40,159 bases of DNA. Origin: Oceanospirillaceae bacterium (GTDB lineage Bacteria > Pseudomonadota > Gammaproteobacteria > Pseudomonadales > Balneatricaceae). How positions within the stretch are numbered: position 1 is the stretch's first letter; each line of letters begins with the position of its first letter. The position numbers and the translations under genes are program-made. Below are positions 10,523-31,147 of this stretch, piece by piece. The DNA lies in contig JAIBDW010000009.1 of assembly GCA_024686035.1 (NCBI GenBank), forward strand, positions 1 through 40,159, written 5' to 3'. Under the pieces are notes generated by a model. The model was not told the DNA's origin, searched no databases, and worked only from the letters and a program-made list of their open reading frames with translations.

Positions 10523-10689
10523 GAGTAGGACCAGAAAAGAGTAGTTTAGACAGTGCTTTAGGCAATGCATGGGAATATATATTTTATATCACGACTTACT
10601 GTTAGGTTCAATCTGAAGTTTTTATCATTTCTGAGATGAATGTGGCGGGAGTAATAATAAGCCCACTGACTGCATCCGTTTTTTGTGTC

Positions 10690-10716
10690 TTGACGATTTC
10701 AACATTAAGATATAAT
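10690..10716 (+). promoter_or_regulatory. Possible sigma70 promoter for the downstream cupin gene
   Basis: TTGACG (10690-10695), 15 bp spacer, TATAAT (10711-10716). Confidence 0.4.
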
Positions 10717-10790
10717 CTTGCAAGCATATTTTATTACAAGTCTATTTTGTAGGTAGACTATTGATTTAATATCCCTGCTGGTTTTCTTTA

Positions 10791-11222
10791 ATGCAGGTGG
10801 AATCTAAACTCTGGCAAAGGTTGAGAAAAATTTTGAATGACAGCATTGATGTATCAAAAATAATAATGATAGGTGATACAAAGCCGCTTTCTACGGAAGT
10901 AAAGGCTATACCCGCCACGACAGTACTTTTCGGTAACGCTGACACTCAAAACGAATTATATTTTATGGATAGTTCTAGGCAGTTCACAAGCGGTGTTTGG
11001 GAGAGGCCACAAAGCTCATATACAAAGACCAATAAGGCCGACGTGTTTTATTATATGATTGAGGGTGAAATTGTCATTCAGAATCAATACGGTGATTTTA
11101 CATTTATTTATCCAGGGCGAGCGTACATCGTACCTGCGGGCTTTTCAGGGCAATGGGATGTTGTTAAATTCACGCGACAATTCTACGCACGGCATCAACT
11201 TGAAAAGAGTGCTGGCGCATAA
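10791..11222 (+). CDS. Cupin-domain protein (cupin_3 / DUF861-like)
   Basis: FTSGVWERPQSS...YYMIEGEIVIQNQYGDFTFIYPGRAYIVPAGFSGQWDVVKFTRQFYA. Confidence 0.7.
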   Translation: MQVESKLWQRLRKILNDSIDVSKIIMIGDTKPLSTEVKAIPATTVLFGNADTQNELYFMDSSRQFTSGVWERPQSSYTKTNKADVFYYMIEGEIVIQNQYGDFTFIYPGRAYIVPAGFSGQWDVVKFTRQFYARHQLEKSAGA

Positions 11223-11325
11223 GGTTGATATAGCCAGGCAAACCTGAAGTATTCTTGAGTAGGGTGTTGGCCTGTGTATCTATGCCCGCCCGATAAGCAA
11301 AAAACCAGTACGCAAGCAAACGCAT

Positions 11326-12258
11326 CTATTGTTCGAACTCTTCAAATATCTTCATGATGGTATTGCGGTAAGATTTTGTGACCTCAAGAGGCTCTACAGC
11401 GTCCCCATTGAACACGATTTCCATCACAGAAGAGCTCTCTTTTAATGTCGCATGTTGAGGTAGAAGACGTTTATTCACATAGGTGGAGCGACTCACTTGG
11501 ATCATAGGGCAAAGCAACTGAGCTGCGGAGGCAACACTGGTTATGCTTCCGCGCAACTGTTGTGTTTTTTTGTTAATGTCCATAATGTGTGTGTAGGGAT
11601 GTTTATACCACATAATTAAACACTCATTAGTCACAGGAAACTTTTTCATATTATCTGCCACGATGGCAGCCATATGGGTGGTCTGAGCGGACAGGGCGTG
11701 GAATTTTCCAGCACCCACTGTAGCTTGCGTAACACTTTTAGCTAGATTTCTTTGGCAGCTAAAAAATATGTACACCATAATTAATAATTCAACGACCCAA
11801 ATTATGGCGATATAAGTCAAAAAAGGCGTTGGCTCAGGGTAAAAGTACACCCAGCTAATCTCCCCCACTCTAGATTGCTTGTCCATTACAGGTATGGTGC
11901 CAGACAACAACGGCTTTTTGCTGGCTAGAAACTCATGCATAGTCATATTAGTAGAGCAGTATTCTGTTATAGACACATCATCACTGTTTAACGTTTTGAG
12001 CTGCGTGCACAAAGGCGTCATTGTGAGATCTTCATGCTTATTTATAAATTCGCTTATTTTCACACGAGTTGTCTGTTTATTGCCTGCGATTACTCCTTCA
12101 ATAAAGAGGTCATTTTGGGCTAGCTGTTCTAAAAAATTTATGTCTGAGCGGCCATAGGTTTCTTTAGAAAATTCTTCGTAAGTAAGCCACAATAGTGAAG
12201 AATTCACTATTGTGACTAAAGTCGTAGTGAGTATGGATACCTTTATTAGAGGATTCAT
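11326..12258 (-). CDS. Putative membrane-anchored LytTR-type DNA-binding regulator
   Basis: TM1 near N-terminus (VSILTTTLVTIVNSSLLWL), extracytoplasmic region of about 120 aa, TM2 (FLTYIAIIWVVELLIMVYIFF), C-terminal LytTR-like pattern (IMDINKKTQQLRGSITSVASAAQLLCPMIQVSRSTYVNKRLL...EPLEVTKSYRNTIMKIFEEF). Confidence 0.55.
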   Translation of the reverse strand: MNPLIKVSILTTTLVTIVNSSLLWLTYEEFSKETYGRSDINFLEQLAQNDLFIEGVIAGNKQTTRVKISEFINKHEDLTMTPLCTQLKTLNSDDVSITEYCSTNMTMHEFLASKKPLLSGTIPVMDKQSRVGEISWVYFYPEPTPFLTYIAIIWVVELLIMVYIFFSCQRNLAKSVTQATVGAGKFHALSAQTTHMAAIVADNMKKFPVTNECLIMWYKHPYTHIMDINKKTQQLRGSITSVASAAQLLCPMIQVSRSTYVNKRLLPQHATLKESSSVMEIVFNGDAVEPLEVTKSYRNTIMKIFEEFEQ

Positions 12259-12521
12259 TTAAATTTACCTGTAATGTTATTTTTGTCAAAGTCAGCAGTC
12301 GGTGTAAATCTAGTGGTGTTATGTAAAGTCATTGGCGTGTCTCTTGATCCGCTATCTATTTTTTTGGTTGTCTAATTTTGTATTTTCATTAACAAAACCC
12401 CTGTATTAGATAACAAATACTAGTCTTCGTTAACTAAGATGTAAATATAGTTCATAAATATAGATCTGCAAGTTTATTTGTTGATAATTAGCGAATAAAA
12501 ATTACTAAGAGACTGATCGCT

Positions 12522-12869
12522 ATGATTCACATTGTTACTAACGCAGCACAAAACACTGCAATTGAACCCAATCCATGTATTGCAGTATCAGACCTCTTAG
12601 AGGTGATAGACGATTCTGTAGATTTTACCTACCACATTGGATCGACTTCTTATTCTTATAATGGCAGTCCTTCAGCATCTAAGGCAGCGACAACGTTAAC
12701 GTTGCAATATTATGATGCAGAATCAAAAGGTGAGCTCTATGCCATTATGTTTCCTGACATGCCAGCGTGGTTGATTAACCAAATTGAGCTGGGGAATTCT
12801 GTTAAGTTAGTCGATGCCGTGAAGCAGGTCACTATAGAATTGGCAAGCCAAGTGCGAGAGCTGAATTGA
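12522..12869 (+). CDS. Hypothetical protein (115 aa)
   Basis: Open frame with ATG; no family recognised. Confidence 0.5.
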   Translation: MIHIVTNAAQNTAIEPNPCIAVSDLLEVIDDSVDFTYHIGSTSYSYNGSPSASKAATTLTLQYYDAESKGELYAIMFPDMPAWLINQIELGNSVKLVDAVKQVTIELASQVRELN

Positions 12870-12935
12870 TCAGGGAAGTGGCAAAAAAGAAATGTCTAAA
12901 TGCAGATAGCAGCTCTAGCTTGTTTGAAGGGACTG

Positions 12936-13523
12936 TTACTTAAAAGCAACAGTCCCTTCGATGTCAAACCAAGGGCTAAGTTCGATTGGGTGCTTGCTAT
13001 ATACGCTTCCAACAGAGAGTGGGCCTACCGGTGACATGACTTGATAGATAAACAGCTCAACATTAGGGTAGTCGATCAAGAATGTATCAACCAAATCAAT
13101 TTGTGTTATTGGCTGGGGCAACTCAGGCTTTATCGGTGCGCCCGCTTCAATCATTCGTGTTTTCCATTGTGCCTTTATTTGAGACTTTAGGTCAGGACGT
13201 AAGCGAAGGGTGTTTAATACTTTGGACTGACTAATTAATATATCGTCTGAGTTAGTTCTTTCTTTTATTCCAGTATACCGTAAAGGGTACACGTCAAAGT
13301 CGAAGTCAACAGTCACTGCGCAGCAGCGTTGCCCCTCTTCTTTAAACATAGTGTCCAAGAAAGAGAACGCCTTACGGCTTGATGAAGCCCCATACAATCC
13401 AGTATACAAGGCACCTGGCGGCGTCTCTACACCAAGCATTGATAGCACAGAATGGTCTAATTCATGGTTGGTGTCAGAAGTGTCTGAGTTGTTAAACTTG
13501 GTGTAGAAAAGTAAACTTTGCAT
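12936..13523 (-). CDS. Hypothetical protein (195 aa)
   Basis: Open frame with ATG, divergent from the 13656 regulator-like gene; no family recognised. Confidence 0.5.
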   Translation of the reverse strand: MQSLLFYTKFNNSDTSDTNHELDHSVLSMLGVETPPGALYTGLYGASSSRKAFSFLDTMFKEEGQRCCAVTVDFDFDVYPLRYTGIKERTNSDDILISQSKVLNTLRLRPDLKSQIKAQWKTRMIEAGAPIKPELPQPITQIDLVDTFLIDYPNVELFIYQVMSPVGPLSVGSVYSKHPIELSPWFDIEGTVAFK

Positions 13524-13655
13524 ATATAATTTAGCACTGTATTATGAGACCAATTCACATCGGTGTTATGAAGCTATGACTAGTGATTTCCACTACGCTA
13601 ATGTAGTATATAATAGATTCAGTAAAATGTTAATGTTTTCCAATGTTAGGAATAA

Positions 13656-14201
13656 ATGAAATCTATGCGATCAAATTCATTGTCAGGAAAAGAGCTTAAA
13701 AGGCTATCTGTAGTATTAAACGAGCGTATTGCCTCACTGTCGTGGTTATTCGGTTTTTCTTCGGCCCAATGGGTGAAAAATGCTAATAGAGAAAAAGGTG
13801 AGCTACTTATACAGCACTCTTTGATGATACGAATGTTATTAGAACGCCCAGAGTTATCCCCGATACCCAAAGTGCCACTCATGCATGAGGTTTACGACCT
13901 TTTGGTTGCAATAGACCCCAGCCTTACGCATAACAAAATGGCTACTATTGTCGGTCTAAGTACAAAATCAACCAAACGAATTTTTGGTGACGGAGCTCCA
14001 ACAAGTACCGTGGGTCATATGTTACTGATCATAAAAAATGAGCTTACGCGGCTAAAGACGAAGCAAGAAAGGCGCGAATTTTACCATTTTTTACAGGACA
14101 ACATTAAGTCTGAGGCAGAATCTCGTGGTTACGATCCAGACAAGGTGTTGAATGAGCTAGGCTGGACGATTAACGCTAAGCCGTCTGATCTCCAAAGCTA
14201 A
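13656..14201 (+). CDS. Putative HTH regulator-like protein of a type seen on plasmids/ICEs
   Basis: SLSGKELKRLSVVL...; ELLIQHSLMIRMLLERPELSPIPKVPLMHEVYDLLVAIDPSLTHNKMATIVGLSTKSTKRIFGDGAPTSTVGHMLLII reads like a helical DNA-binding regulator. Confidence 0.45.
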   Translation: MKSMRSNSLSGKELKRLSVVLNERIASLSWLFGFSSAQWVKNANREKGELLIQHSLMIRMLLERPELSPIPKVPLMHEVYDLLVAIDPSLTHNKMATIVGLSTKSTKRIFGDGAPTSTVGHMLLIIKNELTRLKTKQERREFYHFLQDNIKSEAESRGYDPDKVLNELGWTINAKPSDLQS

Positions 14202-14495
14202 TCTCCTAGCACTCCATCAGTCTAAATAACTTCATTTGCTAATGCATTTTACTTTTGTAATGTTTTACGAGAGTAGAGGGGCTATTGTAAATGACTGAAG
14301 TTTGCCTTTGGGAAATAAACCTTAACAGGCCAAGTGAAAAATTCCCTTTTCGTATTTTATTTATATGCAAAATAACTCATAATAAAAAGTTAATATAAGT
14401 AATTTGTTAACAATGGCCCGTAACTAGTCGCTGATCATTAGCCAATAGTGTCTTAATCTGCGTTATTTGGTGGGCCTACTAGGTTTTAAAAAACA

Positions 14496-15053
14496 ATGAG
14501 TTTTGATAAAGACCCTCAACAACTTTTCCTAGAGTGTGCCGCTAAACCCACTCCTAATTCCTTTAAAGCACTATATGATGCAACTCAGATGCGTCTTTTT
14601 CCAGTATGTCTGCGTATATTAAAAGATCATGAGCTTGCACAAGATTGTCTTCAAGCAAGTTATGTCAAAGTTTGGCATAACTTGAATAACTACGATGCCC
14701 AAAAGAGTAAAGCGGTTACTTGGATGAGCCGGATTATTAGAAATCAAGCTTTAGATATGCTCAAACGAAAGAATTTTGTGGACTTTGTGGACGATGTGCC
14801 GGATATGATAGACCCTTCTTTACAGCATGAGGATCAGGTATTAGTGGCAGAACAGTCAGCATTATTAAAACAATGTTTAGCACAGCTTAAACCACAGGCC
14901 ATGCATTGTATTTTGGGTAGTTATTTTGATGGGTTAACTTTTCAGCAATTGGCGGATCAGCAGGTGCAGCCCCTTAGCACGATAAAAACTTGGGTACGTC
15001 GCAGCTTACCATTATTAAAAAAATGTTTGGAGCGAAGTTATGACCAACATTAA
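14496..15053 (+). CDS. ECF-type RNA polymerase sigma factor
   Basis: Region 2 (ELAQDCLQASYVKVWHNLNNYDAQKSKAVTWMSRIIRNQALDMLKR) and region 4 (CLAQLKPQAMHCILGSYFDGLTFQQLADQQVQPLSTIKTWVRRSLPLLKKCL). Confidence 0.92.
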   Translation: MSFDKDPQQLFLECAAKPTPNSFKALYDATQMRLFPVCLRILKDHELAQDCLQASYVKVWHNLNNYDAQKSKAVTWMSRIIRNQALDMLKRKNFVDFVDDVPDMIDPSLQHEDQVLVAEQSALLKQCLAQLKPQAMHCILGSYFDGLTFQQLADQQVQPLSTIKTWVRRSLPLLKKCLERSYDQH

Positions 15054-15744
15054 TACCTATAAATCTGAACAGAGGCTAGATGAGCTCGCCTTTAGGTATG
15101 CGTGTGGAAGCCTTAGCGAGCAAGAGCTTGATCAAGTTGAGCAAAATTTCATGCAAATGTTGAAATTTCAAACTCGACTTGCCTATTGGGAACGGTATAT
15201 CGCCGAATTAGACCACTCTCTAGAGGCTGTGCCAGCGCCACCTGCTGTTTGGCAAAATATTAACCAACACCTTCTCACTCAGCAAAGGGGCCAAAACAGT
15301 TCTTCACAATCTCTGGCGCAGCGCTTAAGTCAAATGCTGAAAGAGTTTTGGTTGGGCGTTAACGGCGCAACCCTAGGGCTCTCAGCAAGCGCAATGCTTA
15401 TCGTGCTAGTGATATTTTTTATACAGCCAAAAAATCCCGTGTATTTAGACGATCAATGGCTTGTGAGATCTAATATAAACAGCAGTGTGATTACATTAGT
15501 GGCTATTGCTCCAGACCCTATCTCAGCTGACATAAATTGTAATCTATGGATAACCAATAGCGATGGGGCTCTATTTGTAGCAACACTTCCCGAAACGGGG
15601 GAGGTTACGGTGGATTTATCAGCGTATCCAGAAGTATTAAAAAAACTTAATCGGCCAGGCTTATTGCAAGTGACCTTTGACCAAAAAGGTACTCAACCAG
15701 AGCGTATGGGAGCAGTCATGTTAGAAGCGAGCTGGTCTATATAG
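15040..15744 (+). CDS. Anti-sigma factor, RskA-like
   Basis: Overlaps the sigma gene by 14 bp; acidic N-terminal domain (LAFRYACGSLSEQELDQVEQ), single TM (LGLSASAMLIVLVIFFI), RskA-like C-terminal domain. Confidence 0.85.
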   Translation: MTNINTYKSEQRLDELAFRYACGSLSEQELDQVEQNFMQMLKFQTRLAYWERYIAELDHSLEAVPAPPAVWQNINQHLLTQQRGQNSSSQSLAQRLSQMLKEFWLGVNGATLGLSASAMLIVLVIFFIQPKNPVYLDDQWLVRSNINSSVITLVAIAPDPISADINCNLWITNSDGALFVATLPETGEVTVDLSAYPEVLKKLNRPGLLQVTFDQKGTQPERMGAVMLEASWSI

Positions 15745-15900
15745 CTTTCAAGTGATTTATTGTGAATATTTTTATTAAGTTGAATCTATCGTGCAACTCA
15801 TGTCGTAAGTACAAAAGAGACAGGTTAAACGTGTCTTTATAGGCCAAATTAAATTAACCAAGTTTGGCTCAATTAATGATTAGATGTTAAAGGAAGACTT

Positions 15901-16161
15901 ATGAAAATTTCACAAAAAATCGTCACCGCAACTGCACTCTCTGGTGTCTTAGCGGTTGGATTATCACTGGCTTCAACGGCTGCTTCAGCTGCTGAAAAAG
16001 AAAAGTGCTACGGTGTGGCGGCAGCCGGTCAAAATGACTGCGCAACTAACAACTCATCTTGCGTGGGAACATCAAAAACAGACAATCAAACAGATGCCTT
16101 TATCGCAGTACCAGAAGGTTTATGTGAGCGTTTAGCAGGCGGCTCGTTAATGTCTAGTTAA
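15901..16161 (+). CDS. bufA: Bufferin-type RiPP precursor (DUF2282)
   Basis: Sec-type signal peptide (MKISQKIVTATALSGVLAVGLSLASTAASAA), then EKCYGVAAAGQNDCATNNSSCVGTSKT...VPEGLCERLAGG with four cysteines; next to DUF692, DUF2063 and DoxX genes. Confidence 0.88.
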   Translation: MKISQKIVTATALSGVLAVGLSLASTAASAAEKEKCYGVAAAGQNDCATNNSSCVGTSKTDNQTDAFIAVPEGLCERLAGGSLMSS

Positions 16162-16169
16162 ACATCGAC

Positions 16170-16198
16170 ACCCATCTGAAGTTGACTTTCAGATGGGT
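16170..16198 (+). terminator. Strong intercistronic hairpin between bufA and bufB (partial terminator or mRNA-stabilising stem-loop)
   Basis: ACCCATCTGAA-gttgact-TTCAGATGGGT: perfect 11 bp stem, 7 nt loop, followed by CTTTTAA. Confidence 0.75.
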
Positions 16199-16255
16199 CT
16201 TTTAACTATGTCTGCTAACACTTTGTCTATTTCAATGCACATAGGAACATAAACC

Positions 16256-17098
16256 ATGGGGCACCAGTCGTACCTTTTAAATGGCGCCGGAATTGGTTTA
16301 AGGCAGCCTCATGTCGCGCATTTTATAGCAGGTCATCCGCCTGTTAATTGGCTTGAAGTGCACAGTGAAAACTACCTACAAGAGGATAGTAAGCGCCGTC
16401 ATCAATTACGCCATATTCGTAATGACTATGCTATTAGTTGTCATGGGGTTGGTTTGTCCCTAGGTTCTTCAGATTCTTTAAATCTTAGGCATATAGAATC
16501 GCTCAAAAAATTATTTGATGATATTTCTCCTTGTTTGGTTTCTGAGCACTTAAGCTGGAGCTCACTGGATGGACGCTTTTATAACGACTTATTACCACTG
16601 CCATACACCCGCGAGGCTTTATTACACATGATAAGTCGGGTGAATCAAACACAAGATTTGCTAGGCAGAGAGATTCTTATCGAAAACCCTTCTTCTTATT
16701 TAGCATTTAAGAATGTAGACATGAGTGAAGTAGAATTTCTCAATCAACTGAGTCATCACAGTGGCTGTAAATTACTATTAGATCTTAATAATATTTTTGT
16801 AAGTAGTCGTAACTTACATACAGACCCCTACAGTTATCTAGAAAATATTCACTGGCATCAAGTAAAGGAGATCCATTTAGCTGGCCACACCCTGAAACGG
16901 CTCCCGCAAGGAACTATTCGCATAGATACACATAACGACCATGTGTGCGAAGAAGTGTGGGAAATGGTACATACTTATAAAAAACAGCTAAAACATATTC
17001 CTTGTCTAATCGAGTGGGATGCTGATATCCCAAGCTTAGATATATTGATAGCTGAGGCTAGAAAGGCCGAAAAATGTTTGGGCATTAATCATGCTTAA
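16256..17098 (+). CDS. bufB: MNIO family (DUF692) multinuclear iron oxidative enzyme
   Basis: GAGIGLRQPH, WLEVHSENYL, SCHGVGLSLGS, LVSEHLSWSS, ILIENPSSYLAF, LLLDLNNIFVSS, EIHLAGH, DTHNDHV, CLIEWD. Confidence 0.92.
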   Translation: MGHQSYLLNGAGIGLRQPHVAHFIAGHPPVNWLEVHSENYLQEDSKRRHQLRHIRNDYAISCHGVGLSLGSSDSLNLRHIESLKKLFDDISPCLVSEHLSWSSLDGRFYNDLLPLPYTREALLHMISRVNQTQDLLGREILIENPSSYLAFKNVDMSEVEFLNQLSHHSGCKLLLDLNNIFVSSRNLHTDPYSYLENIHWHQVKEIHLAGHTLKRLPQGTIRIDTHNDHVCEEVWEMVHTYKKQLKHIPCLIEWDADIPSLDILIAEARKAEKCLGINHA

Positions 17099-17924
17099 AA
17101 CCACCAATTTGGCACAGTTGCAAGGGCACTTTGTTCAAAGTCTGCAACATGGGCTACTTGCACACACTTTAGATCAATCGAATCCTTCTCAAGTCGCTCA
17201 CTTAAATAATCTACTGGTAGACTCTCACTTCACGCCAGAACAGCTAATCAGCGTCTATCGCAATAATTTTCTGATCAGCCTAAAAGAGCTTTTAGAACAG
17301 CTGTTCCCAGTGACTAATGCTTTGATAGGAGGCGCTTACTTTGCTTATGTCAGCCGCCAATTTATTGCTGAAAACCCACTCATTCAGCCCCATTTAAACC
17401 AATATGGTGGTGAATTTGTGGATTTTCTAATGGCTGTGGCGCCACTGAAAAAAATGCCCTTTGTGGCTCAAATGGCTGAGTTAGAGTGGCACTTGGATCG
17501 TATTGGTCACTTGTACCATAAAACAAAATTCGATTTTGATCGTCTTTCACAAATAGACGAAAGCCAAGTCATGGGGATTCATTTTAATCTAGCACCTACG
17601 TGTTATTTAATGAGTTCTGATATCAATTTAATTGAGCTACACAAGCGTTTATCTAATCCAGACCAATCTATATCAACAGATATTATTGATGCAGCCGGCT
17701 ACCAACAACAAAGCTATATTTTAGTGTTGCAAAACCAACATGGAGACTCGGCACTCATGTCTTTAAACCATCAACACTGGCGGTGGCTAAAAGGCTTAAA
17801 ATGTGGCTTATCTTTGTCACAGCTTTGTGGTGTGGATGATACAGACCTGCAGCTATTAATGAATCAAGTTGCAGATTGGATAGCTTTGGGTTGTATTGAT
17901 GGCTTTGCTATTAATCCTAACTAG
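17091..17924 (+). CDS. bufC: DUF2063 partner protein of the MNIO enzyme
   Basis: LAQLQGHFVQSLQHGLL..., ISVYRNNFLISLKELLEQLFPVTNALIG; overlaps the DUF692 gene end by 8 bp. Confidence 0.88.
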   Translation: MLKTTNLAQLQGHFVQSLQHGLLAHTLDQSNPSQVAHLNNLLVDSHFTPEQLISVYRNNFLISLKELLEQLFPVTNALIGGAYFAYVSRQFIAENPLIQPHLNQYGGEFVDFLMAVAPLKKMPFVAQMAELEWHLDRIGHLYHKTKFDFDRLSQIDESQVMGIHFNLAPTCYLMSSDINLIELHKRLSNPDQSISTDIIDAAGYQQQSYILVLQNQHGDSALMSLNHQHWRWLKGLKCGLSLSQLCGVDDTDLQLLMNQVADWIALGCIDGFAINPN

Positions 17925-17971
17925 ACAACTAAATGACCAACCGCAAAATATAACGAACTTAAGGGGTACCT

Positions 17972-18409
17972 ATGAAAAGCTTGTTTAACACCTATCAACA
18001 GGCGGTAATAACATATAGTCCTGGTGTACAAAGTATTTTTTTATTGGCTTTAAGATTATGGGTATCATGGGTATTCATAAACGCAGGCTTAATAAAGTTT
18101 AATCATTGGGGCTCTACATTATTTCTGTTTGAATATGAATACCAAGTCCCTTTCGTGCCCTGGCTGGTGGCGGCGTACATTGGTACTGCAGCAGAAATTA
18201 TATTGCCGGTGTTTGTTGCTATAGGCTTAATGACCAGGCCTATGGCATTGGCTTTGTTTGTGTTCAATATTGTAGCTGTGATTTCGTACCCAACTATATG
18301 GGTCAGTGGTTTCTATGACCATCAGCTATGGGGGTTAATGATGCTAGTCGTGGTGTTATATGGCCCGGGACATTGGGCATTAGATCGGTTGTTAACCCAG
18401 CGCGATTAG
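17972..18409 (+). CDS. bufD: DoxX family membrane protein
   Basis: LRLWVSWVFINAGLIKFNHWGSTLFLFEYEYQVPFVPWLVAAYIGTAAEIILPVFVAIGL; last gene of the canonical bufferin cluster. Confidence 0.87.
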   Translation: MKSLFNTYQQAVITYSPGVQSIFLLALRLWVSWVFINAGLIKFNHWGSTLFLFEYEYQVPFVPWLVAAYIGTAAEIILPVFVAIGLMTRPMALALFVFNIVAVISYPTIWVSGFYDHQLWGLMMLVVVLYGPGHWALDRLLTQRD

Positions 18410-18491
18410 ATTTTGTATATTTTTTAGTCGTTTACTATTAGTATCTATTAGGCTTTACACGATAAAAAACTTAGGTTGAAAGGAATAGCTT

Positions 18492-19073
18492 GTGGGATTA
18501 CGTTGGTTACCTTTAGCAACACAAAGGCACTTGATGAACACAGGATTGTGTCTATTATTAATCTTAGGTTCATTCGAGGCAATAATGGGGCCTGATTTAG
18601 TATCAAACCTGCGAGATTTTACGGGAACCTATGGCGCATACTTATTAGTGGCTAGTTTACTTTTTACGCCTTTGAGTCATAGATTTAAATGGGTTAAGCG
18701 TAACCTATGGATGCGTCGTAATATTGGAGTATGGGGTTTTATCTATGCCGCAGCACACCTGGTTATATGGATCGTCCTTGAGTTTTACTTTGATTGGGCA
18801 CTAATGTTGGATGAAATCAAAGGAAATTTATTCATTTTGCTTGGCATTTTTGCCTTTTTTTTATTGGTACCCATGGCACTTACTTCTAACAATCGAGCGG
18901 TTAAGTTTCTCAGCTTTCGTAAGTGGCAATTGCTGCATTGCCTAACGTATTTAGCTATCCCTAGCGTAATTGCACATCATTTTATGGCACAAAAAACAGC
19001 TGAGTCAGAACCATTGTTTATGGGCCTAGTGTTAATTTTAGTATTTATTTGGAGGTATCGCCATGTCCATTAA
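18492..19073 (+). CDS. msrQ: MsrQ, heme-binding membrane subunit of the MsrPQ methionine sulfoxide reductase
   Basis: Ferric-reductase-like TM protein: GTYGAYLLVASLLFTPLSHRFKW, RRNIGVWGFIYAAAHLVIWIVLEFYFDW, KWQLLHCLTYLAIPSVIAHHF; GTG start with upstream AAAGGA. Confidence 0.9.
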   Translation: MGLRWLPLATQRHLMNTGLCLLLILGSFEAIMGPDLVSNLRDFTGTYGAYLLVASLLFTPLSHRFKWVKRNLWMRRNIGVWGFIYAAAHLVIWIVLEFYFDWALMLDEIKGNLFILLGIFAFFLLVPMALTSNNRAVKFLSFRKWQLLHCLTYLAIPSVIAHHFMAQKTAESEPLFMGLVLILVFIWRYRHVH

Positions 19074-20004
19074 GTCATCTGCAATCACACCAGAAAAAGT
19101 GTATAAAAGACGCCGTGTTTTAATGGCTGCAGGGGCTGGCGTATTAGGGGTGCCCTTGATCAATAAAGCCTATGGACTTTTTCAAGACAAGCAGGAAGTA
19201 GAAGCGCCATTTCCCCAAGTAGTGAGTTTACCAGGTGAGAAAAACCAGCCACTAATACCAACGCCTTATGAGACCATAACTACTTATAACAACTATTATG
19301 AATTTGGTGTTGGAAAAGATGACCCTTCCAAAGCGGCGAAAACATTAACCACCTCGCCGTGGAGTGTTGACATTGGTGGTGAGGGTTCAGATAAGCCTGG
19401 CAGGTATGATATTGCTGATATAAAAGGTGAATCGGCTATTGAGAATCATATCTATCGGTTTCGTTGTGTAGAGGCATGGTCCATGGTTATTCCCTGGAAT
19501 GGCATTAAGTTGTCTGATGTTATTAAATTTGCATTACCTAATAGTAAAGCTAAATACGTACGCTTCACCACCATAAATGATCCCCAGCAAATGCCTAATG
19601 CAGGTTGGGCTGGTGGGCCGTATGTTGAAGGGTTAACGATAGAAGAAGCCATGAATCCTTTGACATTATTATCTACGGGTATATATGACAAACCGTTAGA
19701 ACAGCAAAATGGAGCACCAATTCGATTAGTTGTGCCGTGGAAATATGGCTTTAAATATGCCAAGTCGATTGTAAAGATCGAATTAGTCGAAAAGATGCCA
19801 AAAAATACATGGTGGCTACAAAACAAAAGAGAATATGGTTTTTATGCGAATGTTAATCCCCAATTTAGCCATCCTCGCTGGACACAAGCGACAGAACGAG
19901 TGATTGGAGAGTTAGGTCGTAAACCAACCTTGTTATATAACGGGTATGCGCAGGAAGTTGCTCATCTGTATCCAGATTTGGATAACCGACTGTATTTTTA
20001 TTAG
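19063..20004 (+). CDS. msrP: MsrP, periplasmic molybdopterin methionine sulfoxide reductase catalytic subunit
   Basis: Tat-like N-terminus (YKRRRVLMAAGAGVLGVPL), TYNNYYEFG, YRFRCVEAWSMVIPWNGI, APIRLVVPWKYGFKYAKSIVKIE; SD GGAGG; overlaps msrQ. Confidence 0.95.
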   Translation: MSIKSSAITPEKVYKRRRVLMAAGAGVLGVPLINKAYGLFQDKQEVEAPFPQVVSLPGEKNQPLIPTPYETITTYNNYYEFGVGKDDPSKAAKTLTTSPWSVDIGGEGSDKPGRYDIADIKGESAIENHIYRFRCVEAWSMVIPWNGIKLSDVIKFALPNSKAKYVRFTTINDPQQMPNAGWAGGPYVEGLTIEEAMNPLTLLSTGIYDKPLEQQNGAPIRLVVPWKYGFKYAKSIVKIELVEKMPKNTWWLQNKREYGFYANVNPQFSHPRWTQATERVIGELGRKPTLLYNGYAQEVAHLYPDLDNRLYFY

Positions 20005-20156
20005 GCTTGAATAAGGCGCTTTGGCAGCGCGTGTGAAAATGTTTATTGGCAGATGCCTGGGCTTGATAGGTTAGGTGCGTTAGAGAGGGGCTTGATGATA
20101 TTTTTGTTCATTGGCTTTGAGTCTATAGCCTTAGCCGTCAATTTTTCACACGGATA

Positions 20157-20405
20157 TTAATTAAGATTTTCTTCACTAAGGTTTCTTTTTTTATTTAAGA
20201 TATACTTTCTAACGTAGCTTGCAAAGGTGCTGTACTGCACGGGCATCTTCCCTTTCTTGTGCAATATCCCCCACACCTCAGTCTGTAAGTAACCGGCTTC
20301 AAGCGCTGTTTGAATTTCATCGATTTGAGACAGAAATAATATACGTGCGTTACGTTTACCAAAACTATCTTCATGCTTTGATGTAAGCTCTTCTAGTAAT
20401 GTCAT
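20157..20405 (-). CDS. Small TraK-like (plasmid/ICE accessory) protein
   Basis: FLSQIDEIQTALEAGYLQTEVWGILHKKGKMPVQYSTFASYVRKYI resembles the core of TraK-family conjugation accessory proteins. Confidence 0.5.
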   Translation of the reverse strand: MTLLEELTSKHEDSFGKRNARILFLSQIDEIQTALEAGYLQTEVWGILHKKGKMPVQYSTFASYVRKYILNKKRNLSEENLN

Positions 20406-20439
20406 TGACTCACCTATATGATGAAATAATCTATGTCTA

Positions 20440-20760
20440 CAATCATTATAGTCAATAAATAATGGTTGTAAAACAGCTTAAAGCCAGTGAAATCAACAAC
20501 AAGTGTTATAACAAGCGAATATTGCGTCAAACTAAAGTAATATATGCTAATGTAGATATATTTAATTTAATTTGCTATATTCTTATGCTAAAGATCTAAT
20601 TAATTATATTAAAAACGCTTTGGCATATAAATTTTTTTTACAAAAATAAATACCTAACACTATTGTAATAATAAATAATATTATAGTGATATTAAAATAA
20701 TATTTTATTGATATGTGATTTATAATTTGTTTGAAATTTTTGTTATTAACATTTTAATCG
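20440..20760. other. Extremely AT-rich non-coding segment
   Basis: Long A/T runs (e.g. aataataaataatattatagtgatattaaaataatattttattg), no credible ORF; flanked by more balanced sequence. Confidence 0.7.
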
Positions 20761-21016
20761 GCTCCTAAAGTTAAAACCCCATTTTTACTAAGGCCGATGT
20801 CGAGTTTTTTTTTAGTCCCGCATAATATATTTTTTCCAGTGTTTTTATTTGAAGTGCATGGACTAAATGCCTATTGAGCTTGAAAATAAGTCATTTTATG
20901 ACTAAAAAGTCAAAATAGAGCCTGAACCTGCTGCAAAACAGCAACCTGTTAATTGGTCGTTTTGCACTGCTGCGCGTATTAATATGCATTTTGCGATTAG
21001 TGGATTTGAAAATAGG

Positions 21017-21091
21017 CCATTAGGGTAGGCGATCCCCTTTTCTGTTGCGTCACCGTTGTGGACTGGCCGGTGCCTACAACCTAATGGTGAC
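21017..21091. repeat. Overlapping imperfect inverted repeats
   Basis: CCATTAGGGTAGGC (21017-21030) pairs with GCCTAC-aa-CCTAATGG (21072-21087); GTCACC-GTTGTGG (21049-21061) pairs with CTACAAC-ctaat-GGTGAC (21074-21091). Confidence 0.7.
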
Positions 21092-21221
21092 ACAGCAAAG
21101 ATAGGCCTGAGGACTATCCCAACAAGGCTCAAGGCGCAGAGCTACCTCTTCATTAGAGTGAATGTGTTAGATATACTGGAAAATTAATAGACTATGGCCT
21201 ATTAAATGTGTGGGTAAGGTT

Positions 21222-24665: not shown

Positions 24666-25736
24666 ATGGCCACTACTCCTGCTAAAACGAGCCCAAAAGT
24701 CACTGAGGCCCCTGTGCCTATGCGTTTTGTTGGTCCCATGAAAATCAGCGCTCAAAAAAGCGTGGATGATGCATGGCAAGACAAACTATCAGTGCCGCTG
24801 GCGACCTATGAAATTCCTTTGTGGCATTCAGTAGGGCGGGGTGCCAGGCTGTCTACTTTGTGTGATGAAGGTATTAAAACCACACTGGTAGATGAACGCA
24901 TGACGCGCTCTATTTTACTAGAAGCAAAAGATGCAAGCCAAGTGCTAAATGCATGGCGATCTATCGAAATGCGCCAAGATGAAATGCAATTAATCGTGCG
25001 CCAGACCAGTCGTTTTGCCAAGCTGATCGACATGAATATGCAGATTGTGGCCAATTTACTCTATTTGCGTTTAGAGTTTAAAACCGGTGATGCCTCGGGC
25101 CATAATATGGTCACTAAAGCAGCAGATCGCCTTATGCAGTGGGTTTTGGATGAATATCCATCGTTGTCTTATTCATCTATTTCGGGTAATTATTGTAGCG
25201 ATAAAAAAGCCACGGCAGTGAATGGTATTTTAGGCCGTGGGAAATATGTGGTGGCAGAACTAAGCGTGCCAAGAAGCCTTTGTGAGCGCAAACTTCTGAC
25301 CACGCCTGAAAAAATAGTAGAGCTAAATATTAAGAAAAACCTATTAGGCACACTCATGGCAGGCGGCTTGCGCAGTGCAAATGCCCACTTTGCAAATATG
25401 CTACTTGGTTTTTATTTGGCCACAGGCCAAGATGCTGCCAATATTATAGAAGGCTCACAAGGCATGGTGCATGCCGAAGTGCGAGAAGGAGATTTATACT
25501 TCTCGTGTACCCTACCTAATATTATTGTAGGCACCATAGGCAATGGCAAAGGGTTAGATTTTGTGACTCAAAACTTGTCCAAGCTTGGGTGTTCTGAAAA
25601 GGCTGAGTCTGGCGCGAATGCGCGTCGTTTAGCCCAAATATGTGCGGCCACGGTGTTATGTGGAGAGTTATCTTTATTAGCAGCACAAACTAATCAGGGC
25701 GAGCTGATGCAAGCCCATTTAACGTTAGAGCGATAA
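24666..25736 (+). CDS. mvaA: Hydroxymethylglutaryl-CoA reductase
   Basis: GDASGHNMVTKAAD, SGNYCSDKKATAVNGILGRGKYVVAE, NAHFANMLLGFYLATGQDAANIIEGSQ, GTIGNGKGL. Confidence 0.92.
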   Translation: MATTPAKTSPKVTEAPVPMRFVGPMKISAQKSVDDAWQDKLSVPLATYEIPLWHSVGRGARLSTLCDEGIKTTLVDERMTRSILLEAKDASQVLNAWRSIEMRQDEMQLIVRQTSRFAKLIDMNMQIVANLLYLRLEFKTGDASGHNMVTKAADRLMQWVLDEYPSLSYSSISGNYCSDKKATAVNGILGRGKYVVAELSVPRSLCERKLLTTPEKIVELNIKKNLLGTLMAGGLRSANAHFANMLLGFYLATGQDAANIIEGSQGMVHAEVREGDLYFSCTLPNIIVGTIGNGKGLDFVTQNLSKLGCSEKAESGANARRLAQICAATVLCGELSLLAAQTNQGELMQAHLTLER

Positions 25737-26765
25737 ATGAACGATCAAACAAATCGCCGAAAACGGCAACATATTGAAGTGATTGGCAAAGACGAAGGCG
25801 TGGAGCGTAATGGCCGTTTTTTTGATGCTATGCACTTACAACATCGTGCTATGCCCCAGATTAACTTAGCCGATGTAGACCCTAGCATAGAGATCATGGG
25901 TAAGCGTTTAAGCTTTCCTTTACTTATTTCATCCATGACAGGTGGTGATGATAAGTTGGTGGAGAAGGTGAATCAACGTTTGGCCCAAGCAGCTCAAATT
26001 ACTGGCGTAGCCATGGGTGTGGGCTCACAACGGGTGATGCTAGAGGACAAAAAAGCGGCAGCGAGTTTTGACTTGCGCAAATATGCGCCCGATGCACTGT
26101 TGTTTGCCAACATAGGTGCCATACAGTTAAATAATGGTATAGGGCCGGATCAGTTGCAGCAAGCTATTGATGTGTTGGGTGGCGATGCTATTTTTTTACA
26201 CCTTAATCCATTACAAGAAGCGGTGCAGCCAGAAGGCGATACTAATTTTGCGAACTTGGCCCAAGCGATAGGCCATGCGCAAGCCAGCCTTAATGTGCCT
26301 GTAGTGCTTAAAGAAGTAGGTGCGGGGCTTAGTATTGCAGATATAGAGCTAGGTATGCGCCATGGTATCAAATGGTTTGACGTAGCAGGACGCGGCGGCA
26401 CATCATGGGCGCGTATTGAACAACAGCGTAGGCAAGATACGCATACTTTAGGTTTTACCTTACAAGATTGGGGTATTCCTACACCACTGGCCATGAAAAA
26501 TGCACGTCCTTACATGCAAGATGCAAATTTCATTGCCAGTGGTGGTTTGCGCAATGGGCTAGACTTGATAAAGAGTGTTATCATGGGCGCTAAGTTAGGT
26601 GGCGTCGCTAAACCGCTTTTAGGGCCAGCCATGGAATCTACTGATGCCGTTGTGGATACTATTGAAGCCTTGAAAAAAGAGTTTGTTACTGCCATGTTTT
26701 TATTGTCTGCAACTAGTGTAGACGATCTGTATTTAAACGATACATTAGTGCTTAGTGAAGGTTAG
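25737..26765 (+). CDS. fni: Type 2 isopentenyl-diphosphate delta-isomerase (FMN-dependent)
   Basis: RKRQHIEVIGKD, LISSMTGGDDKLVEKVNQRLAQAAQ, MGVGSQRVML, HLNPLQEAVQPEGDTNF, VAGRGGTSWARIE. Confidence 0.95.
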   Translation: MNDQTNRRKRQHIEVIGKDEGVERNGRFFDAMHLQHRAMPQINLADVDPSIEIMGKRLSFPLLISSMTGGDDKLVEKVNQRLAQAAQITGVAMGVGSQRVMLEDKKAAASFDLRKYAPDALLFANIGAIQLNNGIGPDQLQQAIDVLGGDAIFLHLNPLQEAVQPEGDTNFANLAQAIGHAQASLNVPVVLKEVGAGLSIADIELGMRHGIKWFDVAGRGGTSWARIEQQRRQDTHTLGFTLQDWGIPTPLAMKNARPYMQDANFIASGGLRNGLDLIKSVIMGAKLGGVAKPLLGPAMESTDAVVDTIEALKKEFVTAMFLLSATSVDDLYLNDTLVLSEG

Positions 26766-26816
26766 TTAAGACATCTGCACTTTGTTCAGTTTTAGCAGGG
26801 AAGATAGAGAAGTTAT

Positions 26817-27998
26817 ATGCCCGTTGGTATTGATGATATAAGTTTTTATACGACTAATTTTAGCCTTGATTTGCAAGAATTAGCCGCTAATAATGGCTCT
26901 GATGCCGCCAAATACACTGTTGGTATAGGCCAAGAGCGTATGAGTGTGCCTGGTGCCGATGAAGATGTAGTGACTATGGCCGCCAATGCCAGTATGGCTT
27001 TAATTGACGGCATGAGCGCCCGCGGCGAAGATCCACAGGCCATCACCACTATTTTGTTTGCTACCGAAACAGGTATAGACCAATCCAAGGCTGCAGGAGT
27101 GTACTTACACTCTTTGTTAAAGCTTGGCCCTCGTTGTCGCGTGGTGGAGCTTAAGCAAGCTTGCTATAGTGCCACTGCAGCTTTATTACTTGCCACTGCC
27201 TGGGTGGCTCGCAAACCTAAAGAAAAAGTTTTAGTCATTGCCTCAGATATTGCCCGTTATGAACGCCAATCACCAGGTGAGGCCACCCAAGGTTGCGGTG
27301 CAGTGGCGATGATCGTGAGTGCAAACCCAAGGCTGATAGAACTAGACCCAGAAACAGGTATTCATACAGAAGATGTGATGGACTTTTGGCGGCCTAATTA
27401 TCGTTCCACTGCGTTGGTTGACGGCAAGTACTCTACCAAGGTGTATTTGCGTTCTGTGCGAGCAGCCTGGCAAGATTTCCAGCACCAAAGCGATTTAACC
27501 TTTGGTGATTTTGATTATTTTTGTTATCACTTGCCGTTTAGTCGTATGGCACAAAAAGCCCATAACCATTTGGCTAATGGCAATGCCCACAAGCTTAATG
27601 CGAAAGCTCTAGATCAGCAAATTAGCGCCAGCCTTATGTATAACCGTATTACCGGTAATAGCTATACAGCTGCGATGTATATTGGCTTGGTATCTTTGTT
27701 GGACAATACTTCAGCTGATCTGGCGGGCAAACGGATTGGCTTCTTTAGTTATGGCTCTGGCAGTGTGGGTGAGTTTTTCACAGGCACTTTGGTAAAGGGT
27801 TATCAAAACATGCTCCACCAGCAAGCTCACCAAACTATGCTAGATGCTAGGCAGCCGTTAAACTATGCAGACTACCAAAAGATGTATGCCTTTGAAGTGC
27901 CTACAGATGGTGGCGATCATGTTTTTGAGCAGCAAACTAATGGCAAGTTTCGCTTAACGGGGATTAGCCAACACAAGCGCCTTTATCAGGTGCGATGA
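26817..27998 (+). CDS. mvaS: Hydroxymethylglutaryl-CoA synthase
   Basis: MPVGIDDISFYTTN, catalytic Cys in ELKQACYSATAALLLA, YHLPFSRMAQKAH, FSYGSGSVGEFFTG. Confidence 0.95.
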   Translation: MPVGIDDISFYTTNFSLDLQELAANNGSDAAKYTVGIGQERMSVPGADEDVVTMAANASMALIDGMSARGEDPQAITTILFATETGIDQSKAAGVYLHSLLKLGPRCRVVELKQACYSATAALLLATAWVARKPKEKVLVIASDIARYERQSPGEATQGCGAVAMIVSANPRLIELDPETGIHTEDVMDFWRPNYRSTALVDGKYSTKVYLRSVRAAWQDFQHQSDLTFGDFDYFCYHLPFSRMAQKAHNHLANGNAHKLNAKALDQQISASLMYNRITGNSYTAAMYIGLVSLLDNTSADLAGKRIGFFSYGSGSVGEFFTGTLVKGYQNMLHQQAHQTMLDARQPLNYADYQKMYAFEVPTDGGDHVFEQQTNGKFRLTGISQHKRLYQVR

Positions 27999-29089
27999 TC
28001 GACTTTGATGCCACCTATGTAAGCCCCTCTTCAGGGCCTTTTTGCACTCGTGCAAAGGTTCCAGGCAAGGTGATCATCAGTGGCGAACATGCGGTTGTTT
28101 ACGGCGCACAAGCCATCGCTTGTGCAATCCAAAAATATGCCTTTGCCAAAGTTACTCATAGTGATTTTTTGGGTGTGCATCTTAGGGTGAACGCATTTGG
28201 CATAGATCAGAAATTCACGCCCGCACAGCTACTTGCTGTGGCCCAAAAAACTCAACTAGCTCATCAACAATACACTCTTGGTTTAGGCTCTTTGAGCGAT
28301 GTGGTTGCTGCCCCGGATGCTTTTTTTGCAGCGGCCATAGGTGCTAGTGGCTTGGTAGATGTGCTCCAAAGTAGAGGTGGCTTGCTTATAGAGCTCAGCA
28401 CTAACCTAGTGGCTGGAGGTGGTATGGGTTCATCTGCTGCCTTGGTAGCGGCTATGTTAGCTGCTGGTTTTAAACATTTAGGCCAGCCTTTAAGTGCGGC
28501 TGAGCTAGTGCTCAAAACCACCCAAAGTGAACACTGGCAACACGGGCGTTCTAGTGGTTTAGACCCTTACGTGTGTGTGATGGGTGGCTTGCAGCAATAC
28601 CCACAGCGGGATCAGCACGATAAAACGCTTCAAAATGCTGCTCACATTCCACAAGCTTTAACGCTACCCCCATGTTTTTTGATTAGTAGCGGCAAGCCAG
28701 AAAGCTCTACAGGTGATTGCGTGGAATTTGTGAAACAACAAAATTTTCCAAAAAGTATGTGGCAAAAATTTAATACAGTGCAAGTAAACCTACTTACAGC
28801 CTTGCAAGAAAATCAACAACATAACCTGCGGGTTGCCATAAAGGCCAATCATCAATTACTGTGCCACATCGGTGTGGTGCCTAAGCAAGTGAGTGAGTTT
28901 ATTGCCACTATAGAAGCTCATAAAGGCGCTGCAAAAATATGTGGTGCAGGCGGTGTGGCAGGAGATGCGGCTGGTTTGGTTTTAGCGGTGGGGCTTGAGC
29001 AAAAAATGTTGGCCACTTTGTGTAAAGAGCAAGGCTATGAAATGCAAGCCATGCAACCAGATTTTGTGGGGGTGGCTTATGACAACTAA
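27995..29089 (+). CDS. GHMP kinase, probable mevalonate-pathway kinase (mevalonate kinase-like)
   Basis: KVPGKVIISGEHAVVYGAQAIACAI, VAGGGMGSSAALVAAMLAAG, KICGAGGVAGDAAGLVLAV; ATGA overlap with mvaS. Confidence 0.82.
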   Translation: MIDFDATYVSPSSGPFCTRAKVPGKVIISGEHAVVYGAQAIACAIQKYAFAKVTHSDFLGVHLRVNAFGIDQKFTPAQLLAVAQKTQLAHQQYTLGLGSLSDVVAAPDAFFAAAIGASGLVDVLQSRGGLLIELSTNLVAGGGMGSSAALVAAMLAAGFKHLGQPLSAAELVLKTTQSEHWQHGRSSGLDPYVCVMGGLQQYPQRDQHDKTLQNAAHIPQALTLPPCFLISSGKPESSTGDCVEFVKQQNFPKSMWQKFNTVQVNLLTALQENQQHNLRVAIKANHQLLCHIGVVPKQVSEFIATIEAHKGAAKICGAGGVAGDAAGLVLAVGLEQKMLATLCKEQGYEMQAMQPDFVGVAYDN

Positions 29090-30119
29090 TATGAGTGTCG
29101 TTGTTTCTGCGCCTGCCAATACCATGCTTATGGGTGAACATGCGGTGCTTTTTGGCCACAGTGCTTTGGTGTGTGCTTTAACTATGCGCATCTATGTAGA
29201 GGCGCACGTACGCACTGATGGTCTTATCGTTATAGACTCTAAGCTTGGCCATTTTTCATGTGCATTAGCTGATTTGGCTATGCATTTAAGTCAACCCTGT
29301 GCTTTTAGTTTTGTGCTGCAGGCACTTGCAATCACTGCGCCTAAGCTTGGTGTGAGCCTAGTGATTGTGTCAGATTTTGAGCATACCCTAGGTTTGGGTT
29401 CTTCAGCGGCGGTGACGGTGGCCACTATTGGTGCTATGACGTTACTGACTAAGGGCCAGTTTGATCCCCAAGACGTGATGCAGCAGGGTATTCAGGTGAT
29501 TCGTCAAGTGCAAGGCAGTGGCTCTGGGGCAGATGTTTCGGCCAGTGCTTTGGGTGGTGTTGTGCAATTTAAAGCAAAGCCTGTGAGTGCGCAAAGAGTG
29601 CAGCTTGGTGAGCAAGCATGGCGTCATGCTCCTAAATTACGTTTAGTCTATTGTGGTTACAAAACCCCAACGCCAAAAGTGATCGCAAAGGTGACCTTAG
29701 CTGCTAAAAAAGCCCCCACTTTTTTTCAACACTGTTATGACAAGATGGGCGCTTGCGTTGACTCTAGCATTGCTGCGTTACACAAGGGACACTGGACAAA
29801 GTTTGCTTGCGCTATGGATCAATATCAAGATTTAATGAGGGACATTGGTGTGAGCGACGATGCCATTGAACGCATTATAAAATTGGGTCGTAATCAAATA
29901 AAAAGCCAAGTAAATGGCCAAGCAAACAAAGGCTTAAACGATGAAGCCTTGTTTGGGGCAAAAATATCTGGCTCTGGACTGGGAGATTGTGTTTTGTTAC
30001 TTGGCAGCCAAGCCATAGATTGGCCGCATCAACAAATCGGTGTACAAATAGACCCTCAAGGTTTACGGGAAGAATTTGCCATTCCAGACCAAACCAACAT
30101 CCTTAAAGAGACCATGTGA
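29079..30119 (+). CDS. GHMP kinase, second mevalonate-pathway kinase (mevalonate or phosphomevalonate kinase)
   Basis: SAPANTMLMGEHAVLFGHSALVCAL, HTLGLGSSAAVTVATIGAM, GSGSGADVSASALGG, AKISGSGLGDCVLLL. Probable start ATG 29079 (or 29091); the track start at 28995 lies inside the upstream gene. Confidence 0.82.
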   Translation: MTTNMSVVVSAPANTMLMGEHAVLFGHSALVCALTMRIYVEAHVRTDGLIVIDSKLGHFSCALADLAMHLSQPCAFSFVLQALAITAPKLGVSLVIVSDFEHTLGLGSSAAVTVATIGAMTLLTKGQFDPQDVMQQGIQVIRQVQGSGSGADVSASALGGVVQFKAKPVSAQRVQLGEQAWRHAPKLRLVYCGYKTPTPKVIAKVTLAAKKAPTFFQHCYDKMGACVDSSIAALHKGHWTKFACAMDQYQDLMRDIGVSDDAIERIIKLGRNQIKSQVNGQANKGLNDEALFGAKISGSGLGDCVLLLGSQAIDWPHQQIGVQIDPQGLREEFAIPDQTNILKETM

Positions 30120-31147
30120 TGGGCACGATCAAAGCTGCAGTAGCTCCTTCAAAAATCTCAGTCAAGCAATGGGTTGATCGTGTTTTAGATGACGCTAAAT
30201 TTAATGTACCAGCGGCAAAAGCCAGTGCTTATGCGCCTAGTAATATTGCCTTAAGCAAATACTGGGGTAAGCGAGAAGCAAGCTTCAACCTGCCTGTCAC
30301 AGGCTCCGTATCTATCTCCTTGGCAGGTCATGGCACTCATACTAAGCTTTGCGTCATAGATGGGCCAAAGCATCAAGTGACCTTGAATGGCAAAGGCTTG
30401 GATGAGCGTGATAGCTTTGTGATAAAACTTAGCCAGTGGCTAGATAGAGTGTTACCCAACAATTTAAAACTAGGTGTCACCACTGTTAATACAGTGCCTA
30501 CCGCGGCTGGGTTGGCTTCATCTGCAAGTGGTTTTGCCGCCTTAACCCTAGCGACAAACAACCTTATGGGCTGGAATTTGCCCCAACACCAGCTATCTGC
30601 ATTGGCTCGTTTGGGTAGTGGCAGTGCCAGCCGGTCTTTGTGGCATGGCTTTGTAAAATGGCATGCAGGGCAGCTGCCTGATGGCAGTGATAGTGTGGCG
30701 CATCCTCTAGAGCAACAATGGCCTAACTTACGGGTGGGTTTACTCACTGTTTCAAGTCATACCAAAGCGGTGTCTTCTCGAGAAGGCATGGCGCGTACGA
30801 TTGCTACATCTAAGCTATATAAACAATGGCCCCAACAAGCCCAAGATGACCTTGCTACTATTGAAGCAGCGATTGCTATGGGTGATTTTGAAACCATGGC
30901 TAAAACAGCAGAACACAACGCCATGAGTATGCACGCCACCATGGCTGCTGCTTGGCCGCCACTAGTCTATTGGCAGCCAGAGTCTTTAGCTCAGATGCAA
31001 AAGGTATGGCAATTGCGCGCCCAAGGGTTGCCACTGTATTTAACTATGGACGCGGGGCCAAACCTGAAATTATTGTTTGAAGCCAAACATCAGGCTGATG
31101 TAGTATCGGCGTTTGAAACAGTGGAAATCATCACGCCGTTTAGCTAA
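30119..31147 (+). CDS. mvaD: Diphosphomevalonate decarboxylase
   Basis: APSNIALSKYWGKREASFNLPVTGSVSISL, PTAAGLASSASGFAAL, RLGSGSASRSLWHGFVKW, MDAGPNLKLLF; TGATG coupling with the preceding kinase. Confidence 0.95.
   Translation: MGTIKAAVAPSKISVKQWVDRVLDDAKFNVPAAKASAYAPSNIALSKYWGKREASFNLPVTGSVSISLAGHGTHTKLCVIDGPKHQVTLNGKGLDERDSFVIKLSQWLDRVLPNNLKLGVTTVNTVPTAAGLASSASGFAALTLATNNLMGWNLPQHQLSALARLGSGSASRSLWHGFVKWHAGQLPDGSDSVAHPLEQQWPNLRVGLLTVSSHTKAVSSREGMARTIATSKLYKQWPQQAQDDLATIEAAIAMGDFETMAKTAEHNAMSMHATMAAAWPPLVYWQPESLAQMQKVWQLRAQGLPLYLTMDAGPNLKLLFEAKHQADVVSAFETVEIITPFS

Follow-up and report, generated by a model that had tools for sequence, protein, structure and literature searches.

A bufferin operon apparently extended by msrQP beside its own sigma factor gene in a marine Oceanospirillaceae bacterium

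MNIO and DUF2063 proteins convert cysteines to copper-binding thiooxazoles (PMC12452194, PMC13097082), and MsrPQ repairs periplasmic methionines and aids copper tolerance in Escherichia coli (PMC9302797). In Caulobacter crescentus, msrP and two bufferin operons (both DUF2282-DUF692-DUF2063, one of them also with DoxX) belong to the sigma-F regulon (PMC3511200), and these genes, together with msrQ, are all copper-induced (PMC8224329). The gig operon of Cupriavidus metallidurans is induced by copper and gold (PMC10304878). A survey of MNIO clusters lists a few of the Buf_EGKCG/oxazolin type with Oxidored_molyb and ferric-reductase genes (PMC12452194); by our own identification, these are probably MsrP and MsrQ. 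Co-control of bufferin and methionine repair by an extracytoplasmic function (ECF) sigma factor is already known, because sigma-F, RpoE2 of Haemophilus influenzae and the MNIO survey provide precedents. Here, we report an eight-gene block (sigma factor, anti-sigma factor, bufA, bufB, bufC, bufD, msrQ, and msrP; 14496-20004, all in a single run on the + strand) from a marine Oceanospirillaceae bacterium (assembly GCA_024686035.1; genome, 2.1 Mb, 94% complete). The window analyzed is one entire contig (JAIBDW010000009.1; 40,159 bp). From its sequence, we read the block, with a probability of roughly 0.75, as a bufferin (captophorin) operon that also includes msrQP and is transcribed with an ECF sigma factor of its own. 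What the window adds to the known systems is a new sigma/anti-sigma type, a new promoter, and linkage of the genes in cis.

The strongest result is that bufA and msrP of relatives have a promoter-like motif in common, rather than the adjacency of the genes in the window. Comparison of the regions upstream of bufA gave a conserved element, TTGAATCTAT-N14-CGTAAGT, at 15780-15810 (+ strand) in the window, which is kept in relatives and is the predicted ECF promoter of bufA. The core of this promoter-like motif, TTGAATCYAT-N14-CGTA, is rare, and a slightly looser pattern has 0 to 3 matches per genome in 15 genomes of the genus. The two matches in genome G102 stand before bufA and before a second, stand-alone msrP (msrP2); G090 has the motif before the same two genes, plus an intragenic match with a shorter spacer. 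The exact motif precedes msrP2 in G090, G091, and G102, and is found with one substitution in G101 and in weaker form in G100. At these five msrP2 loci (L062 to L066), no msrQ was found alongside; msrP2 has no match in the window genome. Counted over the family, 15/23 sites with spacer 14 precede bufA, msrP, or msrAB, as against 0/11 sites with spacer 13 or 15, and two more motif sites precede secreted Spondin_N proteins. Across the order and the class, nearly all other motif matches are intragenic or lie before unrelated genes, and the order-wide frequency is close to that of a reversed control pattern. Motif-like strings within the sigma coding regions of relatives, all at one conserved protein stretch, were set aside.

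Of the 117 family genomes, 17 encode a relative of the sigma factor (counted at ≥120 bits), mostly close to bufferin genes, and 11 of the 13 genomes with the motif before a buf or msr gene also have the sigma factor. In G788, from a distant family, the motif occurs three times within 5 kb, once next to the gene for a sigma factor with 34% identity to that of the window, which supports the pairing of sigma factor and motif. These three copies (G788:C27; L190, L196, and L197) precede genes that, by eye, resemble a PAP2-like protein, a lipase-like protein, and a repeat protein. The sequence comparison suggests that the targets of this sigma class differ between lineages. Taken together, the same rare motif at bufA and msrP2 and the co-occurrence of motif and sigma factor make co-control of bufferin and periplasmic reductase well supported as a prediction, and a dedicated sigma factor appears to turn on the copper-peptide and repair defenses jointly, since relatives with separate genes share one promoter sequence. 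The sequence-only reading of this DNA had proposed control of both functions by one ECF sigma factor; the proposal gains from the motif data, but C. crescentus precedes it as an idea.

The motif also occurs 175 to 225 bp upstream of the gene for a conserved 270-amino-acid protein with no Pfam match in two genomes of one genus (L107 and L113; G110:C36 and G116:C27). In G098 (L170; G098:C35, 7352-14566), about 6 kb of other DNA separates bufA, which has the motif, from bufC and DoxX downstream; no bufB match was found in this stretch, and the operon looks broken.

The targets also bear on what the sigma factor senses. It is possible, though we hold it to be the lesser likelihood, that the sigma factor is mainly oxidant-responsive (e.g., to hypochlorous acid [HOCl]), with methionine repair as the core of the regulon and bufferin as a later addition that protects against metal-driven oxidation. 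G059, of another genus, would fit this, as it has the sigma factor, its motif copies precede msrAB (one of the 15 sites) as well as a Spondin_N gene, and the matches listed for it include no MNIO; relatives of such logic in Neisseria and Haemophilus control msrAB (PMC7907618). However, nearly all sigma-bearing genomes of the family keep bufferin genes, usually adjoining the sigma factor gene, and the Caulobacter regulon is copper-responsive (PMC8224329). The two G059 loci are L165 (secreted MsrAB; G059:C2, 6205-7463) and L166 (Spondin_N/PEP-CTERM protein; G059:C53, 841-1760).

All eight gene assignments of the sequence-only reading (ECF sigma factor, RskA-like anti-sigma factor, four-Cys DUF2282 precursor, MNIO, DUF2063, DoxX, MsrQ, and MsrP) agree with the strand, and family matches back all of them but the anti-sigma factor. 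Downstream of the regulators, bufA (15901-16161) encodes a DUF2282 (Buf1-type) bufferin precursor (PF10048, 81 bits; cut-off, 22.4) with a signal peptide assigned by eye and with C36, C47, C54, and C75 invariant in an alignment of 13 sequences. The MNIO bufferin maturase gene bufB (16256-17098; Pfam MbnB_TglH_ChrH, 332; cut-off, 25) scored 354 against NCBIfam NF050167, above the equivalog cut-off of 310, and its product is related to PDB entry 3bww. It overlaps bufC (17091-17924), which encodes a DUF2063 (PME-type 1) partner protein (PF09836, 64; cut-off, 27), and bufD (17972-18409) encodes a DoxX membrane protein (PF07681, 56; cut-off, 24). The block thus has the features of a Buf1 bufferin (captophorin) system, namely, a four-Cys DUF2282 precursor, a BufB-type MNIO, a DUF2063 partner, and DoxX. 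The gene for the predicted heme-binding membrane partner of MsrP, msrQ (18492-19073; GTG start; PF01794 Ferric_reduct, 55; cut-off, 28), overlaps msrP (19063-20004; Oxidored_molyb, 93; cut-off, 24). MsrP, the periplasmic protein-methionine-sulfoxide reductase, scored 390 bits against NF003767 (equivalog cut-off, 207); its residues 59 to 311 align with the solved MsrP/YedY structure 1xdq, and R17 and R18 of the twin-arginine signal and the active-site C135 are invariant.

The motif lies between the regulator genes and bufA, which suggests two transcription units, one for sigma/anti-sigma and one for buf-msr. Within the second, the 82-bp gap between bufD and msrQ (18410-18491) has no ECF motif (best, 11/17), no clear terminator, and no terminator-like stem inside, so that the sequence permits a single buf-msr transcript. 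A hairpin 3' of bufA (16170-16198, + strand; z = -3.3) has counterparts at the same place in four genomes of the genus, the window included, with different sequences (z = -2.9 to -5.7). Because the hairpin is kept in position and not in sequence, it suggests an attenuator or an RNA-stabilizing element for the precursor segment. An Rfam search gave no match.

The sigma factor (14496-15053; 185 amino acids; Pfam Sigma70_r2 and r4_2) is followed by the gene for an RskA-like anti-sigma factor (15040-15744; 234 amino acids), which overlaps the sigma gene by 14 bp and has a homologue after the sigma gene in relatives. The anti-sigma factor has no Pfam match, a weak NCBIfam anti-sigma match under the cut-off, and no significant match in a structure search. 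Its AlphaFold2 model (mean predicted local distance difference test score, 76) has cytoplasmic helices, one hydrophobic segment, and a C-terminal periplasmic beta domain; an RskA-type layout fits this model and the gene overlap, with family and structure matches weak or absent. These features bear on the idea that the block is a plain SigF/NrsF (ECF16) regulon of the Caulobacter type. The target genes are identical in kind (PMC3511200, PMC8224329), but an anti-sigma factor with a single hydrophobic segment and a beta domain is unlike NrsF with its six membrane segments (PMC3511200), and the promoter is TTGAATC-N17-CGTA, not GTAACC-N16-CGAA. With both the NrsF-type anti-sigma factor and GTAACC-N16-CGAA missing at the block and at bufA, we regard SigF-NrsF (ECF16) membership as highly improbable. 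A string upstream of the sigma gene, GTAACT-N16-CCAA, noted by eye as resembling an ECF16 site, was dropped, as it has no support in relatives.

Several observations weigh against an msrQP-extended bufferin operon under its own sigma factor. In the matches listed for the 117 genomes of the family, msrP and bufB are neighbors in the window alone, and by the test that the sequence-only reading set for itself, conservation of the buf-msrPQ adjacency fails in close relatives. The co-occurrence of motif and sigma factor (Fisher p = 1e-9, uncorrected for relatedness) overstates independence because the genomes come from few genera. The motif is present in G091 and G098 (both draft genomes), in which the sigma factor was not detected, and in G102 the nearest sigma factor has only 43% identity and is encoded apart from the buf genes. 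The bufA motif was not found upstream of the sigma gene (best, 11/17). MsrQ is the top NCBIfam match of its gene product, with a score of 95 that falls short of the cut-off of 130; the operon position fits.

The adjacency does recur at a distance. In a class comparison of 369 genomes, the matches listed contain bufferin-msrPQ clusters in at least two further, distant lineages, G536 and G599/G715. The G536 cluster has two bufA genes, bufB, bufC, DoxX, an ECF sigma factor, an anti-sigma-like protein, msrP, and msrQ on one strand; its sigma factor is dissimilar to that of the window, and no promoter element common to bufA and msrP was found in it. G599 and G715, of one genus, have bufB, bufC, msrP, and msrQ together, with a BufA2-type precursor above the NCBIfam cut-off in G599. 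Because gene order, precursor type, and sigma factor differ between these clusters and the window, the combination probably arose more than once. Among the matches listed from plasmid searches, no record had the two genes near each other, and a BufB scan of named genomes gave two loci only. A tandem bufA pair before one bufB was seen at L042 (G056:C94) and L179 (G536:C18).

The setting of the block invites another account. Between the DAHP synthase and LysR genes, the window carries a 10.6-kb insertion (10571-21221; GC content, about 0.40, versus 0.44 to 0.47 for most of the flanks), which holds a cupin protein gene, orphan genes, the full sigma-to-msrP block, and a DUF5338 gene. The spacing of these two genes is about 100 bp in G102 and G090, which have no insertion, and about 1.8 kb stands in its place in G097, G100, and G101; since the two genes nearly adjoin in relatives, the block is part of a lineage-specific insertion. 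The ends of the insertion showed no repeats of ≥12 bp, direct or inverted. In such a variable island, msrQP could have been rearranged next to buf by chance and kept its own regulation, with the sigma factor controlling buf only. Besides the lineage-specific, lower-GC insertion itself, this account has in its favor that relatives carry msrQP elsewhere; in G102, about 414 kb separate the buf operon from the msrQP orthologue (identities, 82% and 73%). We nonetheless think chance neighbors unlikely: msrQP is on the same strand behind a gap with neither a terminator nor a second motif, relatives place another msrP under the bufA motif, and comparable clusters exist in other lineages. Elsewhere in the insertion, a motif-like site on the - strand (13594-13621; spacer 15) precedes an orphan gene (12936-13523) by about 70 bp and may be due to chance or mark an additional target.

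Under the preferred reading of a sigma-driven, msrQP-extended bufferin operon, the membrane anti-sigma factor would keep the sigma factor bound in the resting state, and a stress in the periplasm, with copper or an oxidant as the likeliest cause, would release it. The sigma factor would then start transcription at TTGAATC-N17-CGTA before bufA. The transcript would give the precursor and, past the hairpin, BufB, BufC, and DoxX, with MsrQ and MsrP made by read-through from the bufA promoter; the hairpin could allow excess production of the precursor. As expected from the known families, BufBC would modify the central cysteines, the exported peptide would then bind Cu(I), and MsrPQ would reduce oxidized methionines in periplasmic proteins. 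In relatives, the same sigma class would reach an unlinked msrP or msrAB via the same motif; in the window, msrQP stands behind the buf genes. On balance, we favor the view that a distinct sigma/anti-sigma type with another promoter code independently took on the same bufferin and reductase job, here in one operon. If true, this would, with G536 and G599/G715, mean that a chelator and methionine repair are functional partners that recur in the defense of the envelope. That bufferin and periplasmic methionine repair are tied together under sigma factors unlike each other points to a common stress, namely, oxidation of the envelope by copper or by other means, and the gain is a precise promoter motif with testable targets (msrP, msrAB, and Spondin_N proteins).

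Outside the insertion, the translations of a gene run at 24666-31147 look, by eye, like a complete mevalonate pathway with a type 2 isopentenyl diphosphate isomerase, which is unusual in a gammaproteobacterium. A GcvT-family protein gene (31822-32976) could be a candidate dimethylsulfoniopropionate demethylase gene.

In the literature, no paper was found on MsrQ with DUF692 or on RskA with Spondin, and the closest systems each share part of the arrangement. In E. coli, control of msrPQ by CusSR likewise joins MsrPQ to copper defense through shared regulation (PMC9302797), but it is a two-component regulation with an efflux pump and no bufferin. H. influenzae RpoE2 is an ECF sigma factor over periplasmic methionine sulfoxide reductases (msrAB and mtsZ) and a DoxX cluster (PMC7907618), with other reductases, another precursor type, unlinked genes, and a response to HOCl. 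The Buf_EGKCG clusters have another precursor type than the window, and sigma genes are reported for Buf1 clusters only. The C. metallidurans gig operon with rpoQ-rsqA resembles the window in placing DUF2282, MNIO, DUF2063, and DoxX beside an ECF sigma/anti-sigma pair (PMC10304878), whereas the described gigPABT operon is without msr genes. Caulobacter SigF-NrsF shares, by sequence, the gene set of bufferin operon and msrPQ. There, msrPQ is unlinked, under six-helix NrsF and GTAACC-N16-CGAA, whereas the window has cis-linked genes, another anti-sigma type, and another promoter; the functional likeness stands.

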